A DNA stretch of 10,651 nt from NCBI GenBank assembly GCA_027618625.1, contig JAQCER010000049.1, forward strand, positions 1-10,651. Direction: 5' to 3'. Below are positions 3,304 through 9,882 of the stretch, one piece after another (position 1 is the first letter of the stretch; each line of letters begins with the position of its first letter). Made by a program: the position numbers and the translations under genes. The stretch is from Verrucomicrobiota bacterium (GTDB lineage Bacteria; Verrucomicrobiota; Verrucomicrobiia; Verrucomicrobiales; DEV007). The notes beneath the pieces are model-generated. The model was given only the letters and a program-made list of their open reading frames with translations. It was not told the DNA's origin and searched no databases.

Positions 3304-3933
3304 CTACTTATCCTTAAATATTCTGGGCAATGCACTGCGTTGCGAAACAATAATCTTGTCTCCCGGGCGCAGCTTGACATCGAGAGCGGGATTGCTGGAA
3401 ATCGCCTTCATGTTATGCTTCGTGGTATTGCTCCCCCGCATAAGCTTTACGGCTCTCACGTCGGCATAGTCGGTGAATCCTCCTCGGGCAGAAATTGCGG
3501 CCAGCAAGGTCAAGTCTGGACGATAGGGTACATCTCCAGTTCCATTCACTTCGCCAGAAACCGATACGAAGCGCAGGGAGGTAGTCCCCCCGTCGACGTT
3601 AATCGTGATCCTCGGCGAAGTAAATATTTGGGCACTGACGTAAGCCGCTTCTACCGTCTTCGCCAGCATCGAGGGCCGCAGCCCTTTCGCCTGGATTTCA
3701 GATTTGATGTGAGTGAGACGAATCTTCCCTTCGCCATCCACAGTGTATAGACCAGTTATTTCGAGCTGGTCTTTCGGTGGCACTCCGCTGATCCTCAATT
3801 GAATCTGATCACCTGGACGAAGAATTTCCTCCTGGGTCTGAGTTTGGGCCTCGGTCTGAGCAGAGAGAGTTCCGTATCCGAATACGCAAACAACTGCCAC
3901 CAGCATCGCACTCGCTATTGCGTTACTTTTCAT
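3304..3933 (-). CDS. Short Wza-type polysaccharide export (OPX) protein with SLBB domain
   Basis: A 209-residue exported protein of the Poly_export/SLBB family, the periplasmic/outer-membrane part of exopolysaccharide or capsule secretion. An N-terminal signal peptide ends near residue 25 (GTLSA|QTEAQ). The Cys at 16 lies in the hydrophobic core without a good lipobox, so I do not call it a lipoprotein, unlike classical Wza. The Poly_export domain runs from about 37 (LRPGDQIQLRISG) to about 108. One SLBB-like domain follows (about 113-185), ending RPGDKIIVSQ. The protein stops there: it has no further SLBB domain and no C-terminal amphipathic helix of the kind that forms the outer-membrane ring in E. 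coli Wza (roughly 380 residues). I chose the ATG at 3933 because it gives a compact signal peptide; a GTG at 3948 would add five residues. Neither has a clear Shine-Dalgarno sequence. It follows the Wzc gene by 54 bp and is probably cotranscribed with it. Confidence 0.88.
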   Translation of the reverse strand: MKSNAIASAMLVAVVCVFGYGTLSAQTEAQTQTQEEILRPGDQIQLRISGVPPKDQLEITGLYTVDGEGKIRLTHIKSEIQAKGLRPSMLAKTVEAAYVSAQIFTSPRITINVDGGTTSLRFVSVSGEVNGTGDVPYRPDLTLLAAISARGGFTDYADVRAVKLMRGSNTTKHNMKAISSNPALDVKLRPGDKIIVSQRSALPRIFKDK

Positions 3934-3987
3934 GTGTGATTTTGTCACGGTTCTGTTTAAAAGTTAGTGCCCGAACGCCAGACCGTC

Positions 3988-6234
3988 TTAATACTCGTCA
4001 TCATCGTAAGCGCTAGCGCCAGCGCTTGGTCCACGATTTTCAGGTTTCCCACTCGATTTGCTCGGTGTGTCTACTTCATGATCGGGATAGTCCACCATGT
4101 CTTCATCATCGATCATGGCTTCAGTTGGACGAGCTTTAGCTCGAGGCTCACTCTGAGTTGGTGAGTAATAGGTGTAGTAGCTTGTGTAGTATTGGTACTG
4201 GCTGTCACTCCTGACATCCACGTTGTTCAAGACAACTCCCAGAAGGTGACCACCAACGTTTTCGATAGCCTGCTTCACCCTGATCAGCATCCCACGTGGC
4301 AGCTTTCGGTGTTGAATGACGATCATGGTAAGGTCCACCTCACTTGCAAGGACAGATGCATCACTCACACCTAGAATTGGCGGAGAGTCAATCAACACCA
4401 AGTCAAAGCGATTTTTCACATCGGCAATCAGCTCCGACATCCGACGGGAGTTCAAAATTCCAGCCGCATCAGCCGGGAGAATACCACTGGGCATGAAATA
4501 AAGGTTATCGATCGGCGTCTGCAGGATCACGTCCTCAAGCATGAGGTCCGTGGTCAGGTAATTGGTCAAGCCTACTGAGTTGTTGATATCAAAGAACGTG
4601 TGCAGCTTCGGACGTCGCAAGTCACCGTCGATCATCAGCGTATTGTAACCGCCTTGGGCACAAATGTATGCCAAGTTGACTAGCGTCGTCGATTTACCCT
4701 CGCCTGCGCCACCACTGACAATTGTAATCGCGTTTGCATCAGCGCTCTTTCGATTGAATTCGATATTCGTCCGCAGAATTCGGTATGCCTCAGCATCTGG
4801 ACTCAATCCACTTTGCTTATGCAAAACACCTACGTCCTTTGGAATCACGGCAAGAACTGGCACTCCCAAGTAACGCTCTACGTCCTCAAGAGTCTTCACA
4901 CTCGTATCCAAGTATTCTAGGAAGAAAGCGAGACCGATACCGAAAACGATCCCCACCACGGCTCCAAGAGCCAATTGAAGAGGGACACGCGGTTTTGCAG
5001 GGACCTCATTCGGTTCAGCATTTTCGTGAATTTCGATAGGATTCTTCGGAAGCGAAAGATCGACCTTCTCCTTGAGAAGAGCCTGACGCATGTCGGTCAG
5101 GATTTGATTCTGGGTCTCATGATTACGCTTTGCCTCAACGTATGTCGTGTAGCTCTTCCTCTCGAGCATCGATTCGTCTTTCTTTTCCTCTCCGATACCT
5201 TCCAGGCTCTTTAGGCTCAGTAATGCGATCTCGAGACGAGTTCCCAAAGACTCTTTGACTGATTTTACGCCATTCTCAAGGATCCGATCCACCTCGGCCA
5301 ATTGGGAGTTTAACGATTGTATATCCGGGTGTTGAGGTCCCAATCCAGTCTTTAACAGCGCCTCCAATTGCACCTTCAGTTTTTGCCGCTCTGGGAAAAA
5401 GGTTGAGATCGTTGAGTCCATCACATTGAGAGCGACTGCCCCTTCAATCAATTTCTCCCCTTCGAGACCGGTAAGTGTCTGAATATGGGTTTTGATCGTC
5501 GATATTTCCTGCTCTGCTTGAAGGCTGTTCATCTTGCTTGCCATAACGATCTGCTTCGAGCCGGTGTCCGTCGTGTCCCCTACCCCGGCCCATGCAGGCA
5601 TTCCTCCTGTTCCAAGATCGACAATGTTGAACTTCTCCATCAATTCGACCATCGCCTGCCTTGCATCCTCAACCTTCTGTTCCTGAAGAGTCTCCTGAGC
5701 ATTCAGCATGTCCAGAGCCTGGTTACTGCGGGAAGTCTCGATTTCGGTTCGTCGGTTTTTGTATGCTTGGCCAATAGCGTTAGCCAGATCTGCCGCCTCC
5801 TGCGGGTCTGTGTGGAAGATTTCGATATCAATCAGGTCAGTCCCCCGCACCTCTTCAGTGCTTAACTTATCCAGCAACAATCCGTAAGCATCACCGCGAG
5901 TTTTGGCGTCTTCCCACTTCTTCACCAACTGCATTTCGTCAATCACATCATAAAGAGTCTCCTTACTGGTGATAATCTGGAACTGCGTCTGGATAAACGC
6001 TGGCGTGATCATCGTTCTCGCGGAATTCTCGCGGAATACTTCATATTCCTGAGACACTGGCTGAATCTGTAGACGCACGCGTCCCAGATACTCTCTAGGC
6101 ATGATGTAGGTAATCACGGCAGCCGTCATGAATACTAAGAAAAACGCCAAGAGAATAACGCCGTATCGATTCCTGATTACTTGCCAGTAATCAAGTGCGT
6201 GAAGTTTGACCTCGCTATTGTTTGTATCGTCCAT
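3988..6234 (-). CDS. Wzc-type polysaccharide co-polymerase fused to BY-kinase
   Basis: A 748-residue inner-membrane protein that couples control of chain length and export to its own tyrosine phosphorylation. The Wzz domain starts at about 10, with a first membrane segment at 25-44. A long periplasmic coiled-coil region spans roughly 145-395. A second membrane segment lies at 418-438, followed by the cytoplasmic kinase. The kinase has EAYRILRTNIEF (482-493), Walker A GGAGEGKST (508-516), Walker A' LMIDGDLRR (533-541) and Walker B LVLIDSPP (612-619). A tyrosine cluster follows at 680-690, with seven Tyr in eleven residues, the expected autophosphorylation site. Unusually, a further 58-residue acidic, Pro/Ser-rich tail follows and ends DDDEY. 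The ATG at 6234 has no obvious Shine-Dalgarno sequence. The Wza-type gene is next, 54 bp downstream. An intrinsic terminator separates it from the beta-barrel gene upstream, so it needs its own promoter or readthrough; I saw no convincing -35/-10 pair. Confidence 0.93.
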   Translation of the reverse strand: MDDTNNSEVKLHALDYWQVIRNRYGVILLAFFLVFMTAAVITYIMPREYLGRVRLQIQPVSQEYEVFRENSARTMITPAFIQTQFQIITSKETLYDVIDEMQLVKKWEDAKTRGDAYGLLLDKLSTEEVRGTDLIDIEIFHTDPQEAADLANAIGQAYKNRRTEIETSRSNQALDMLNAQETLQEQKVEDARQAMVELMEKFNIVDLGTGGMPAWAGVGDTTDTGSKQIVMASKMNSLQAEQEISTIKTHIQTLTGLEGEKLIEGAVALNVMDSTISTFFPERQKLKVQLEALLKTGLGPQHPDIQSLNSQLAEVDRILENGVKSVKESLGTRLEIALLSLKSLEGIGEEKKDESMLERKSYTTYVEAKRNHETQNQILTDMRQALLKEKVDLSLPKNPIEIHENAEPNEVPAKPRVPLQLALGAVVGIVFGIGLAFFLEYLDTSVKTLEDVERYLGVPVLAVIPKDVGVLHKQSGLSPDAEAYRILRTNIEFNRKSADANAITIVSGGAGEGKSTTLVNLAYICAQGGYNTLMIDGDLRRPKLHTFFDINNSVGLTNYLTTDLMLEDVILQTPIDNLYFMPSGILPADAAGILNSRRMSELIADVKNRFDLVLIDSPPILGVSDASVLASEVDLTMIVIQHRKLPRGMLIRVKQAIENVGGHLLGVVLNNVDVRSDSQYQYYTSYYTYYSPTQSEPRAKARPTEAMIDDEDMVDYPDHEVDTPSKSSGKPENRGPSAGASAYDDDEY

Positions 6235-6340: not shown

Positions 6341-7537
6341 TTAGAAAGTGGCGCTCACTCCGAGTGAGACACGGCTACGATCATAATCAGAGAACTCAGC
6401 ATCAGATGAGAGATTGGTGTAAGTGTAGCTGGAATTCAAAACCACATTTTGGAGAATCTGGTAGTCGAGTCCGATAGTCAGATTAACAAGATCGTCTTCA
6501 CGATCGCCGAGGGATGAGAATCCATCGGTAAATGTTTGATGAAGGTAATGGACTCCAGCATTACCGGAGAGGTATGGGCCGAATTTTTGGGTAACAGTTA
6601 AACCAGTCCGGTAGGAAAGGCGCTCCTGGTGGGTTCCTGCATTCGTGGGATCATACCCGTAGCGGTTATACCAACGCAAGGTTGTCTCTTCAGCCAATCG
6701 GTAGTTCAATGCACCCTCAAAGTAAGGATTTGTGGTATCGCCCCCTGAATCAAATTCAGTGAACTCAGCACCACCAGCAATGCTGGCAGTCAACTGACGG
6801 GAGAATGCGTGATTAGCACCCACCAATGCATAGTGTGATTTGTAATCGTTCCGACCACTATCATACTCGGTCGCGCCAAATCGATACTCTGCCGTCAAAG
6901 CCGTCAACCTTGAGACAAGGTATTTGAGCTGCTGAGAAACCAGATGGCTCACCCTATCGTCGGCATTCTCGCCATCATAGGATACTGCGCTGAAAGTGTA
7001 GTTCGTCACAGAAGTGATCGAAGGCGAGATCATGTAGGCTGCCGAGAAGTTGGCATAGCCGAAGGTATATTGATCTTGAACTCGTGAACTGGTCTGGCCG
7101 ATTGCAAAGTCAGGCTGGAACTCATAGGCAAACCAACCATTGAAGCCAAGCTGTAGCCTGCGGGAAGCAGAATGAGTCACGTTCAAGGTTGCCCTGAAAT
7201 TTTGGAACCAGTCATCCTGGCCCGGCTGCGTGTCAAAATGGTAGAAACCAGAATACTGGCCTCCTACTTTTACCTTGGTCACGGGGGAACCTGAAGCGTA
7301 GGCAACAACCACTCCTCCCTGCCAGAACCCTGTATCCGCTTCATCGAAGCCGTCAGGAGCCTGGTTTGAGTTGGAATCGTATCCCACTGCTGTTGCAAGC
7401 GTAACAGTGAACGGCAGGTTAGCTTCGAAGTCGTTATCGGCTCCGATGCTAAGCAACCCTTGGGCTCGGGCTCCGCCCAAACCGGCTACGGATGCCGCCA
7501 CTAGAATTATAGCAGAAAAACTTCGCTTTGTGATCAT
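6341..7537 (-). CDS. Outer-membrane beta-barrel protein, probable polysaccharide-export porin (BBP2-like)
   Basis: A 398-residue protein with a signal peptide of about 26 residues (MITKRSFSAIILV... ending GGARA|Q). The rest alternates aromatic and small polar residues in amphipathic beta-strands separated by Gly/Asp/Asn-rich turns. It ends SLGVSATF, and a terminal Phe is the usual BAM recognition signal. Length and pattern match the BBP2-like (PF10082) porins often found next to Wzc/Wza genes, where they are thought to give the polymer its outer-membrane channel. I chose the ATG at 7537; a TTG at 7549 would add four residues, and AAAAGGA lies between the two but very close to the ATG. The gene is followed by a strong terminator and precedes the Wzc gene. 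The family call rests on reading the strand pattern and context, so it is less certain than the barrel call itself. No substrate-specific motif is visible. Confidence 0.8.
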   Translation of the reverse strand: MITKRSFSAIILVAASVAGLGGARAQGLLSIGADNDFEANLPFTVTLATAVGYDSNSNQAPDGFDEADTGFWQGGVVVAYASGSPVTKVKVGGQYSGFYHFDTQPGQDDWFQNFRATLNVTHSASRRLQLGFNGWFAYEFQPDFAIGQTSSRVQDQYTFGYANFSAAYMISPSITSVTNYTFSAVSYDGENADDRVSHLVSQQLKYLVSRLTALTAEYRFGATEYDSGRNDYKSHYALVGANHAFSRQLTASIAGGAEFTEFDSGGDTTNPYFEGALNYRLAEETTLRWYNRYGYDPTNAGTHQERLSYRTGLTVTQKFGPYLSGNAGVHYLHQTFTDGFSSLGDREDDLVNLTIGLDYQILQNVVLNSSYTYTNLSSDAEFSDYDRSRVSLGVSATF

Positions 7538-7609
7538 GATCCTTTTCAATTCAATTGTAGGCTAGTGTTAAAATGTGTTGTCGGTTTGGTCTTCCTACAA
7601 AAAGCCCAT

Positions 7610-7723: not shown

Positions 7724-8475
7724 TTAATCCTTCTTCGGAGTTGGGTCGCTCGGCGTAATTGGCACGAATATCACTTTACCGCCTGACGAACCCGACTCCT
7801 TGTCTTTTCGCTTAATGAGAGTGACAACTTCTTCACGATCAAAGCCTTTTGGATAATAACCGTAGATTTTCTTGAATTCCCTAGCCAAGGACTTCGGAAT
7901 GTCGAAATCCCGCGTCGTTGCAACAAACCCACCGCCTGGGGACGGTGCGAGCAGATAAATTCCTCGAACATCCAAAGGAGCCCGCCCGAAGTCGAATCCC
8001 CCATCATCGACGGCCTCGGCAGACGGAATCGAATCTTTACCGTAGCGGTTTTTGCCCGAATAGACGGCCTTTCCGCCCTCATCCGACGAAGGGGTTGCAC
8101 CATCACTGAGCGCCCGCTTCAATGCAGAACGGATCTGGGAAGCAGAATCCGGCGCAACTGAGATGGCACATTCGGCAACCGTTGGAGCCATGCTTTCTGA
8201 GGCAATCACCGCAGCAAAAACTATCTCACCCACGAGCTTTTCGTTCGCCTTGGACGCCACGATCGCAGCTTTCACCACTTCACACGCGCACTTTTCGTGG
8301 TTCGCCATAGAGTCCTCTACGATCATCAGCACCTTTTCCGGTGCTGCCTCTACCTGCTTGGTGACAGAATCGGCGATCGTTTCGCAATCCGCAGCAATCC
8401 GCAGCAATCCGCAGCAATCGCAGCGTTTGCGGCAAAGACGGTGGCGACCACTCCCAATGTTTGTAACAATTTCAT
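7724..8475 (-). pseudogene. Secreted protein of unknown function, frame broken by a 10-bp tandem repeat
   Basis: An ATG at 8475 begins a textbook signal peptide (MKLLQTLGVVATVFAANA then AIAAD), but this frame ends after 41 codons. The main body, 220 residues beginning CETIADSVTK, is in another frame and runs to the stop at 7724. The break lies in a 10-bp repeat at 8384-8419; removing exactly two units joins AIAAD to CETIADS in one frame and gives 243 residues. The body has an alanine-rich helical half with Cys in EKCACEVVKA and AECAISVA and apparent repeats of about 35 residues. A linker rich in Ser, Gly and Asp follows, then a half with APLDVRGIYLLAPSPGG and FKKIYGYYPKGF, and a Pro/Lys end. 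The long body is still open and looks protein-like, so the change is recent, reversible, or an assembly error. In its own frame only TTG-type starts exist (e.g. 8407), and these lack the signal peptide. I do not recognise the family. Position suggests a link to the polysaccharide export genes downstream. Confidence 0.7.
8384..8419. repeat. 10-bp tandem repeat (3.6 copies) inside a coding region
   Basis: The plus-strand unit GCAGCAATCC repeats with perfect period 10 over 36 bases; a degenerate further half-copy follows (GCAGCG). On the coding (minus) strand the unit is GGATTGCTGC. Since 10 is not a multiple of 3, each unit gained or lost changes the reading frame of the secreted-protein gene it lies in. 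The repeat falls exactly at the end of the signal peptide. Confidence 0.95.
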
Positions 8476-8610: not shown

Positions 8611-9882
8611 TTATTTTAATAATTCCTGCCCAAGCTCACTCTTCAACTTCGCCTGATTCTCTAAAATGTACTTAGCCGCCTGCTCCACGTCTTTATCGCC
8701 ACGGCCCGAGCAGTTGACGATAATGATTTCGTCCCTCCCCATTTTCGGTGCCTGCTTAAGGACGTAGGCGATGGCGTGGGAAGTTTCGAGAGCTGGGATA
8801 ATCCCTTCGATGCGCGAGAGTTCCTGAAACCCATCAAGTGCTTCATTATCAGTCGCATAGTCGTAGTCGATACGGCCTTGTTCCCTGTAAAACGCGTGCT
8901 CCGGTCCTACCGCTGCATAGTCTAATCCTGCGCTCACCGAGTGCGTCAGTTCGATCTGCCCATCGGCATCGGCCAATAGAAACGTCTTTGTCCCCTGTAG
9001 AACCCCCAGCTTGCCCCCTTGGAATCTCGCCGCATGGCGCCCCTGCACGATTCCGTCTCCGCCGGCCTCTACGCCGACCATTTTGACGCTTTCATCCCGC
9101 AAAAACGGGTGAAACAGGCCAATCGCGTTGCTTCCTCCACCGACGCAAGCCACCAGCAGATCCGGTAGCCGCTCTTCGCGCTCAAGAATCTGTCGCCGTG
9201 CCTCGACACCAATTACCCGGTGAAAATCCCTGACAATCATCGGAAAAGGATGAGAACCCAGGGCCGAACCCAAAATATAATGGGTGTCACGGACGTTGGT
9301 GACCCAGTCCCGCATGGCTTCATTTACCGCCTCCTTGAGCGTGGCCTGCCCTGCGGTCACTGGCCGCACTTCGGCCCCCAGAAAGCGCATCCGGGCGACA
9401 TTCAACGCCTGGCGCTTCATGTCCACTGCCCCCATATAAATGACGCAGTCAAAGCCAAATCGGGCCGCAACCGTGGCCGTGGCGACACCGTGCTGGCCCG
9501 CACCTGTTTCGGCGATGATCCGCTTTTTGCCCAAACGCTTGGCCAGGAGAATTTGCCCCAGCGCGTTGTTAATTTTGTGGGCACCCGTGTGCAGCAGATC
9601 TTCTCGTTTCAGATAAATGCGCGCACCACCCAGCTTCTCCGTAAGCCGCTCGGCAAGGTAGAGCGGCGTTTCGCGCCCACAGTATTCACGAAGCAATCGC
9701 GCCAATTCACCCTGAAATTGCTGGTCCACACGCGCCTTCTGATACTCCAGATCCAGCTCGGTCAGCGCCGCCATCAACGTCTCCGGAACAAACATTCCAC
9801 CGAATTGCCCAAAATGCCCGTGAGCATCTGGCAAGATTTGCGGATCCGGCGTCGAGGTAGTGGAAGAAATGGTTTGAGACAT
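8611..9882 (-). CDS. trpB: Tryptophan synthase beta subunit
   Basis: A 423-residue PLP enzyme that joins indole and serine to make tryptophan, normally as an alpha2-beta2 complex with TrpA. The N-terminus has the family start [15 protein letters not shown] (22-36). The PLP lysine is K103 in [13 protein letters not shown], and the catalytic glutamate is E125 in AETGAGQHG. The phosphate loop is GGGSNAIG (248-255), and CSGRGDKD (391-398) holds the residue that contacts the pyridine nitrogen. These features mark the usual TrpA-partnered TrpB1 form. It is slightly longer than E. coli TrpB (397), with about ten extra residues at the front (Ser/Thr-rich) and a Lys-rich tail. The ATG at 9882 has no Shine-Dalgarno sequence. 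No trpA follows: the next gene downstream is the unrelated secreted protein. It is divergent from the GT4 gene at 10001. Confidence 0.97.

Follow-up and report, generated by a model that had tools for sequence, protein, structure and literature searches.

Gene content of the locus

The window analysed here (10,651 bp of a draft verrucomicrobial genome) carries on its minus strand a gene for a putative secreted protein whose reading frame is broken by a short tandem repeat. The start of this gene (8350..8475) reads, from the ATG at 8475, MKLLQTLGVVATVFAANAAIAADCCGLLRIAKRSPILSPSR and reaches a stop at 8350 after 41 residues; its N-terminus looks by eye like a signal peptide and resembles those of P0001, P0002 and P0004. 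The body of the protein (7724..8383) lies in a shifted minus-strand frame, which includes DCCGLLRIAADCETIADSVTKQVEAAPEK, is open down to 7727 and is intact from ETIADS to the stop. Its identity is 89% to the copy of G001, a genome of the same genus, and 87% to locus L031 (tblastn). Between the two parts there is a perfect tandem run of period 10, with the unit GATTGCTGCG on the minus strand, that spans 36 bp (8384..8419, 3.6 copies) and is the longest perfect run of the window among the periods scanned (4 to 39); TRF delimits the same array as 8384..8424, with 4.2 copies and 3% indels. The unit is not a multiple of three, it is repeated inside the coding sequence and the array stands two units above the in-frame form. 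The residues AIAAD join CETIADS in frame after the loss of 20 bp or the gain of 10 bp and, judging from a reading of the frames against the in-frame homologues, copy-number change alone decides whether the product is intact or truncated. The first-pass annotation of this DNA, whose range of 8384 to 8475 comprised the repeat and the signal peptide, had already placed the array between a signal peptide and an intact body in another frame, and had calculated that two units out or one unit in would restore the frame. The run and both frames were confirmed, and the arithmetic holds on the minus-strand frames. The repeat motif occurs at one place only in the genome, where no second copy of the array was found, and the assembly contains a single allele.

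The genes that follow on the same strand encode a BBP2_2 outer-membrane beta-barrel (6341..7549, Pfam PF10082), a Wzc-like polysaccharide co-polymerase/tyrosine autokinase (3988..6234, TIGR01007 above its cut-off) and a Wza-like polysaccharide export protein (3304..3948, Poly_export and SLBB). The upstream neighbour, as in L031, is an intact trpB (8611..9882, minus strand), which flanks the locus and falls outside its function. The complete order trpB, secreted gene, barrel, wzc and wza is the same in L031 (JAGROY010000197.1). Of 29 homologous loci, 20 have the barrel gene downstream of the secreted gene and in the same orientation (tblastn, flanks of at most 1.5 kb). A Wzc match was obtained in 22 of the 29 genomes searched, 17 of these 22 hold both Wzc and the secreted gene, and in 14 of them the two are on the same contig, a few kb apart. 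Given this shared gene order and the linkage to the barrel and Wzc, the secreted gene heads a conserved exopolysaccharide-export locus, and a role of its product in export is suggested by this neighbourhood only. A scan for promoters and terminators around the gene was uninformative (2 sites each vs averages of 1.1 and 1.4 in shuffled sequence). Besides the array, the window has a single perfect tandem run with at least 12 matches, an 11-bp direct duplication within wzc (6015..6037, 2.1 copies), which leaves the wzc frame intact.

A search with the body retrieved 22 proteins, including the window's own P0003. The nearest homologues are 80-89% identical, and lengths range from 201 to 268 residues except in P0003 (183 residues) and P0020 (130 residues). 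The homologues have signal-like N-termini and conserved cysteines, and most of those aligned share the motif PLDVRGIYLLAPSPGG. A match to the secreted gene was present in 55 of 95 genomes, a set that comprised the window's own; G001 is matched at four places, spread over three contigs. With regard to known domains, Pfam returned only DUF7136 for the body, below its cut-off, NCBIfam gave no match for P0001, and no relative was found when solved structures were compared with the profile of the family alignment. On the basis of these comparisons, the gene is real and conserved, and it is a member of a predicted verrucomicrobial secreted family. This family (window 7724..8475, P0001-P0022), recognizable by its motif and cysteines, is uncharacterised. 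One of its members, P0011, is family-like up to PLDVRGI and continues with unrelated residues, a switch that may correspond to a second, C-terminal frame break or to a sequencing error in another genome.

The array in the relatives and the state of the gene

The first-pass annotation had suggested looking for the repeat in homologues, and it is absent from all those compared. The same-genus DNA of L031/G001, to which the base-by-base comparison was confined, is exactly 20 bp shorter inside the gene, at the position of the repeat, and contains no array of 10-bp units. The 20 homologues whose N-terminus is present (P0001, P0002, P0004-P0019, P0021 and P0022; P0003 and P0020 lack it and were left unaligned) show no ten-residue insertion at the array site, in a list of predicted proteins that favours unbroken copies and from which broken ones would tend to be missing. 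These N-termini consist of a signal-like segment followed by D/E/N-Cys; just before the site, the alignment has two extra residues in P0008-P0010 and one in P0012 and P0021. Finally, no perfect period-10 run of at least two copies was detected in the scanned part (locus positions 900-2400) of the 29 homologous loci L002-L030. Since the same-genus DNA is 20 bp shorter and the 20 N-termini have no insertion, the window carries two extra units, and an ancestral, shared repeat can be rejected for the relatives examined (same-genus DNA, 20 N-termini and 29 loci). The two-unit gain would thus be a lineage-specific expansion, and the gene is predicted to be OFF as assembled. A DNA match over the whole stretch was restricted to the window's own genome and G001 among 37 genomes, with short pieces in G003 and G011.

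The body has no further stop or frameshift. Its comparison with L031 (dN = 0.072, dS = 2.07) resembles those of the barrel, wzc and wza, while dS was not computable for trpB; the body's dS is saturated, so that the age of the expansion cannot be set from it. Unique substitutions were also counted. When P0002 is used as outgroup, the window has 6 vs 10 in P0001 and 7 vs 13 in P0004; when P0005 is used, the window has 3 vs 11 in P0001, 6 vs 14 in P0004 and 9 vs 7 in P0002. The body therefore shows no clear sign of relaxed constraint and no clear excess of window-only substitutions. An old pseudogene is unsupported, as there is neither a further disabling change nor clear relaxation. A body without decay implies that the expansion is recent, revertible or not real, that is, an effect of assembly or strain mixture.

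Tandem runs across genomes

The window's own assembly is made up of 941 contigs and is 70.84% complete, the window being contig C33. Perfect tandem runs (period 2-30, at least 12 matched bases) were collected from its 81 largest contigs (849,411 bp, window included), which gave 62 runs. At least 15 matches are reached by 40 of these and at least 20 by 19, so that the window's array is no rarity within its genome. One order-3 Markov null of equal length (849 kb) produced 0 runs with at least 12 matches, and a chance match due to base composition was therefore rejected. The sampled part of G001 has 11 runs in 494,358 bp. Small samples from other family members gave 8 runs in 100,000 bp (G003), 1 in 83,311 bp (G005), 4 in 56,216 bp (G008) and 5 in 24,250 bp (G011). 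The densities of G003 and G008 are like that of the window's genome and that of G011, a small sample, is higher; the tandem load is thus not peculiar to the window's species. Loss of mismatch repair was considered as a cause of this load, because MutS_I (PF01624) has 0 matches in the window's genome vs 1 each in G001, G003 and G065. Nevertheless, the genome is only 70.84% complete, which leaves this contrast with little weight, and G003 has a similar tandem density despite its MutS_I.

The placement of the runs was studied with a crude codon-usage gene map, and the counts are given without a significance test. Inside genes, 24 runs have a period that is a multiple of three vs a single one that does not, namely the 11-bp, 2.1-copy run in wzc. 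Intergenic runs number 11 with such a period and 19 without. At gene edges there is 1 run of the first kind and 6 of the second, which include the window's own, assigned there because the program took a TTG in the array as the start. Eight runs with at least 20 matches have periods that are not multiples of three. The window's is the only one seen splitting a recognised gene, and the seven others lie between or beside genes according to the codon-usage map, Pfam and the translations, the case of L086 being unclear, which led us to discard a family of switches in this genome. The overall pattern looks like general slippage and purging with one exception, rather than a set of switches, and the exception may be either a newly arisen null allele or a switch that is tolerated and useful.

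Origin of the frame break

The best reading of the locus, probable in our view although by no means secure, is a recent null allele born by slippage and potentially reversible. What the DNA shows directly is the break in frame, the intact body and a length that differs by exactly two units from that of the same-genus relative; slippage is most simply the cause of the break. The seed would have been provided by the in-frame minus-strand codons GCG ATT GCT GCG GAT TGC, which encode A-I-A-A-D-C and hold GATTGC twice, 10 bp apart (GATTGC TGCG GATTGC, 1.6 units); in L031 this seed is present only imperfectly. Slipped-strand expansion would then have brought it from 1.6 to 3.6 units (+20 bp), in a genome that seems to gain short tandem duplications easily, and at the junction between the signal peptide and the mature part of a conserved secreted gene in a verrucomicrobial exopolysaccharide-export locus. 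The event would be recent and cells such as those assembled would make no secreted product. The perfect 36-bp array can slip again, which makes reversion plausible. This reading is based on one allele in one draft genome, and the intact body, which counts against it, is equally expected of a switching gene. If the frame break is a plain slippage mutation, it shows a tandem-rich genome making reversible-looking null alleles, and is a warning that not every repeat of this sort should be taken for a contingency locus.

The first-pass annotation had interpreted the array as a phase-variable contingency locus, and part of this view stands: the gene is conserved, it belongs to an exopolysaccharide-export locus and it is out of frame by exactly two units. 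In a true phase-variable locus, the array would gain and lose units by slipped-strand mispairing and would cycle the protein between in-frame (1.6 and 4.6 units) and out-of-frame (2.6 and 3.6 units) states; a fraction of the population would then export the protein and may alter its polysaccharide surface. The arithmetic agrees with this, as the unit of 10 equals 1 modulo 3 and either 1.6 or 4.6 units would give an open frame, and so do the constraint on the body, the conserved export context and the tract-length frame variation that the excerpt of PMC13055324 describes for a Wzc-like exopolysaccharide gene of Akkermansia, in the same phylum. Moreover, the only gene-splitting run among the eight long runs mentioned above (L086 again being unclear) would be unusual under purging alone. 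Yet, the array is absent from the homologues examined, the assembly has no second allele and there are only 3.6 units vs more than 30 for the Haemophilus gene cited in the excerpt of PMC3711429. The lack of the array in relatives, the single occurrence of the motif in the genome and the location of most non-multiple-of-three runs outside genes speak against a maintained trait, and we consider true phase variation rather unlikely.

An artefact seems less likely still. The gene could be in frame in reality, the assembler having miscounted the units, or the consensus could mix strains, as may be expected in an assembly so fragmented and incomplete; the intact body, the full open frames of the neighbouring genes and the twenty other homologues in frame would fit this explanation. 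Nevertheless, the array, at 36 bp, fits within ordinary short reads and should normally be spanned by assemblers, and the assembly contains many clean runs of similar size, distributed by period as in real DNA under selection. It is also highly improbable that the broken gene still yields its protein, either because ribosomes shift frame in the repeat or because translation re-initiates at an internal start codon. The downstream frame is open and has internal start codons, and the 183-residue P0003 call begins inside the body. Yet, the array has no classical slippery heptamer by eye, an internally started product would lack the signal peptide and its first cysteine, and the homologues that have an N-terminus need no frameshift. 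The recent slippage-born null allele is consequently preferred here.

Comparison with known systems

The closest parallel comes from Akkermansia muciniphila, whose Wzc-like Amuc_1413 has frameshifts in a tract of nine G for which phase variation was proposed; the excerpt of PMC13055324 reports tracts of 8G or 10G in 4 of 100 deposited genomes and a frameshift in 87-91% of reads, and describes Amuc_1412, the neighbouring locus number, as porin-like. Both cases belong to the same phylum and involve a polysaccharide-export locus with a beta-barrel gene, in which a tract near the 5' end shifts the frame. Unlike the homopolymer of 8-10 G in a Wzc-like gene, the window has a 10-bp unit, in a different gene and with one allele. 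The secreted gene had no match in 11 genomes of genus g19, which we guess to be Akkermansia-like. Another similar system is icaC of Staphylococcus aureus, where a tetranucleotide repeat acts as a reversible switch (excerpt of PMC4117637): it is also a short tandem repeat in a polysaccharide gene, in which unit changes that are not multiples of three shift the frame. In contrast with the single allele and 10-bp unit studied here, the excerpt presents a 4-bp unit, several isolates and experimental demonstration of both reversibility and RecA independence. More generally, surface and polysaccharide genes are the usual targets of phase variation according to the excerpt of PMC3711429, where the GeneTack phase-variation clusters need at least five frameshifted members. 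One frameshifted gene with no frameshifted homologues is comparable to the singleton or pseudogene class of that study; the tandem repeat at the site differs from this class and corresponds to what the excerpt asks of phase-variation clusters. In a limited collection of papers, judged by title and the start of the abstract, none was found on the secreted gene or its array.

The poly-G tract of the Akkermansia Wzc-like gene and the 10-bp minisatellite described here in the gene that opens the locus could, somewhat speculatively, mean that slippage-driven frame switching repeatedly affects exopolysaccharide-export loci of Verrucomicrobiota (secreted Cys protein, BBP2 barrel, Wzc and Wza), a proposal to which we give only a small chance. 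If it were true, Verrucomicrobiota known only from metagenomes would also diversify their surface by frame switching. Similarly, if the window's array does switch, repeat-driven phase variation would reach into a verrucomicrobial lineage represented here by draft genomes only, and into a second gene of a polysaccharide-export locus, beside the one implicated in Akkermansia.

Other tandem runs in the genome

The runs of the window's genome mostly have periods 6-9 (39 of 62 in 849 kb), and their density is about three times that of the sampled part of G001. The longest are a 15-bp unit with 4.5 copies (L048) and a 12-bp unit with 4.1 copies (L074), the latter being equalled in length by the 23-bp doublet of L086. 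A heptamer array of 5.7 copies (L040, 3724-3763) is located at the upstream end of a small ORF that has a weak, below-cut-off match to the ABM domain and is adjoined by an ADP-ribosylglycohydrolase gene; this array could affect how the small ORF is expressed or where it starts.
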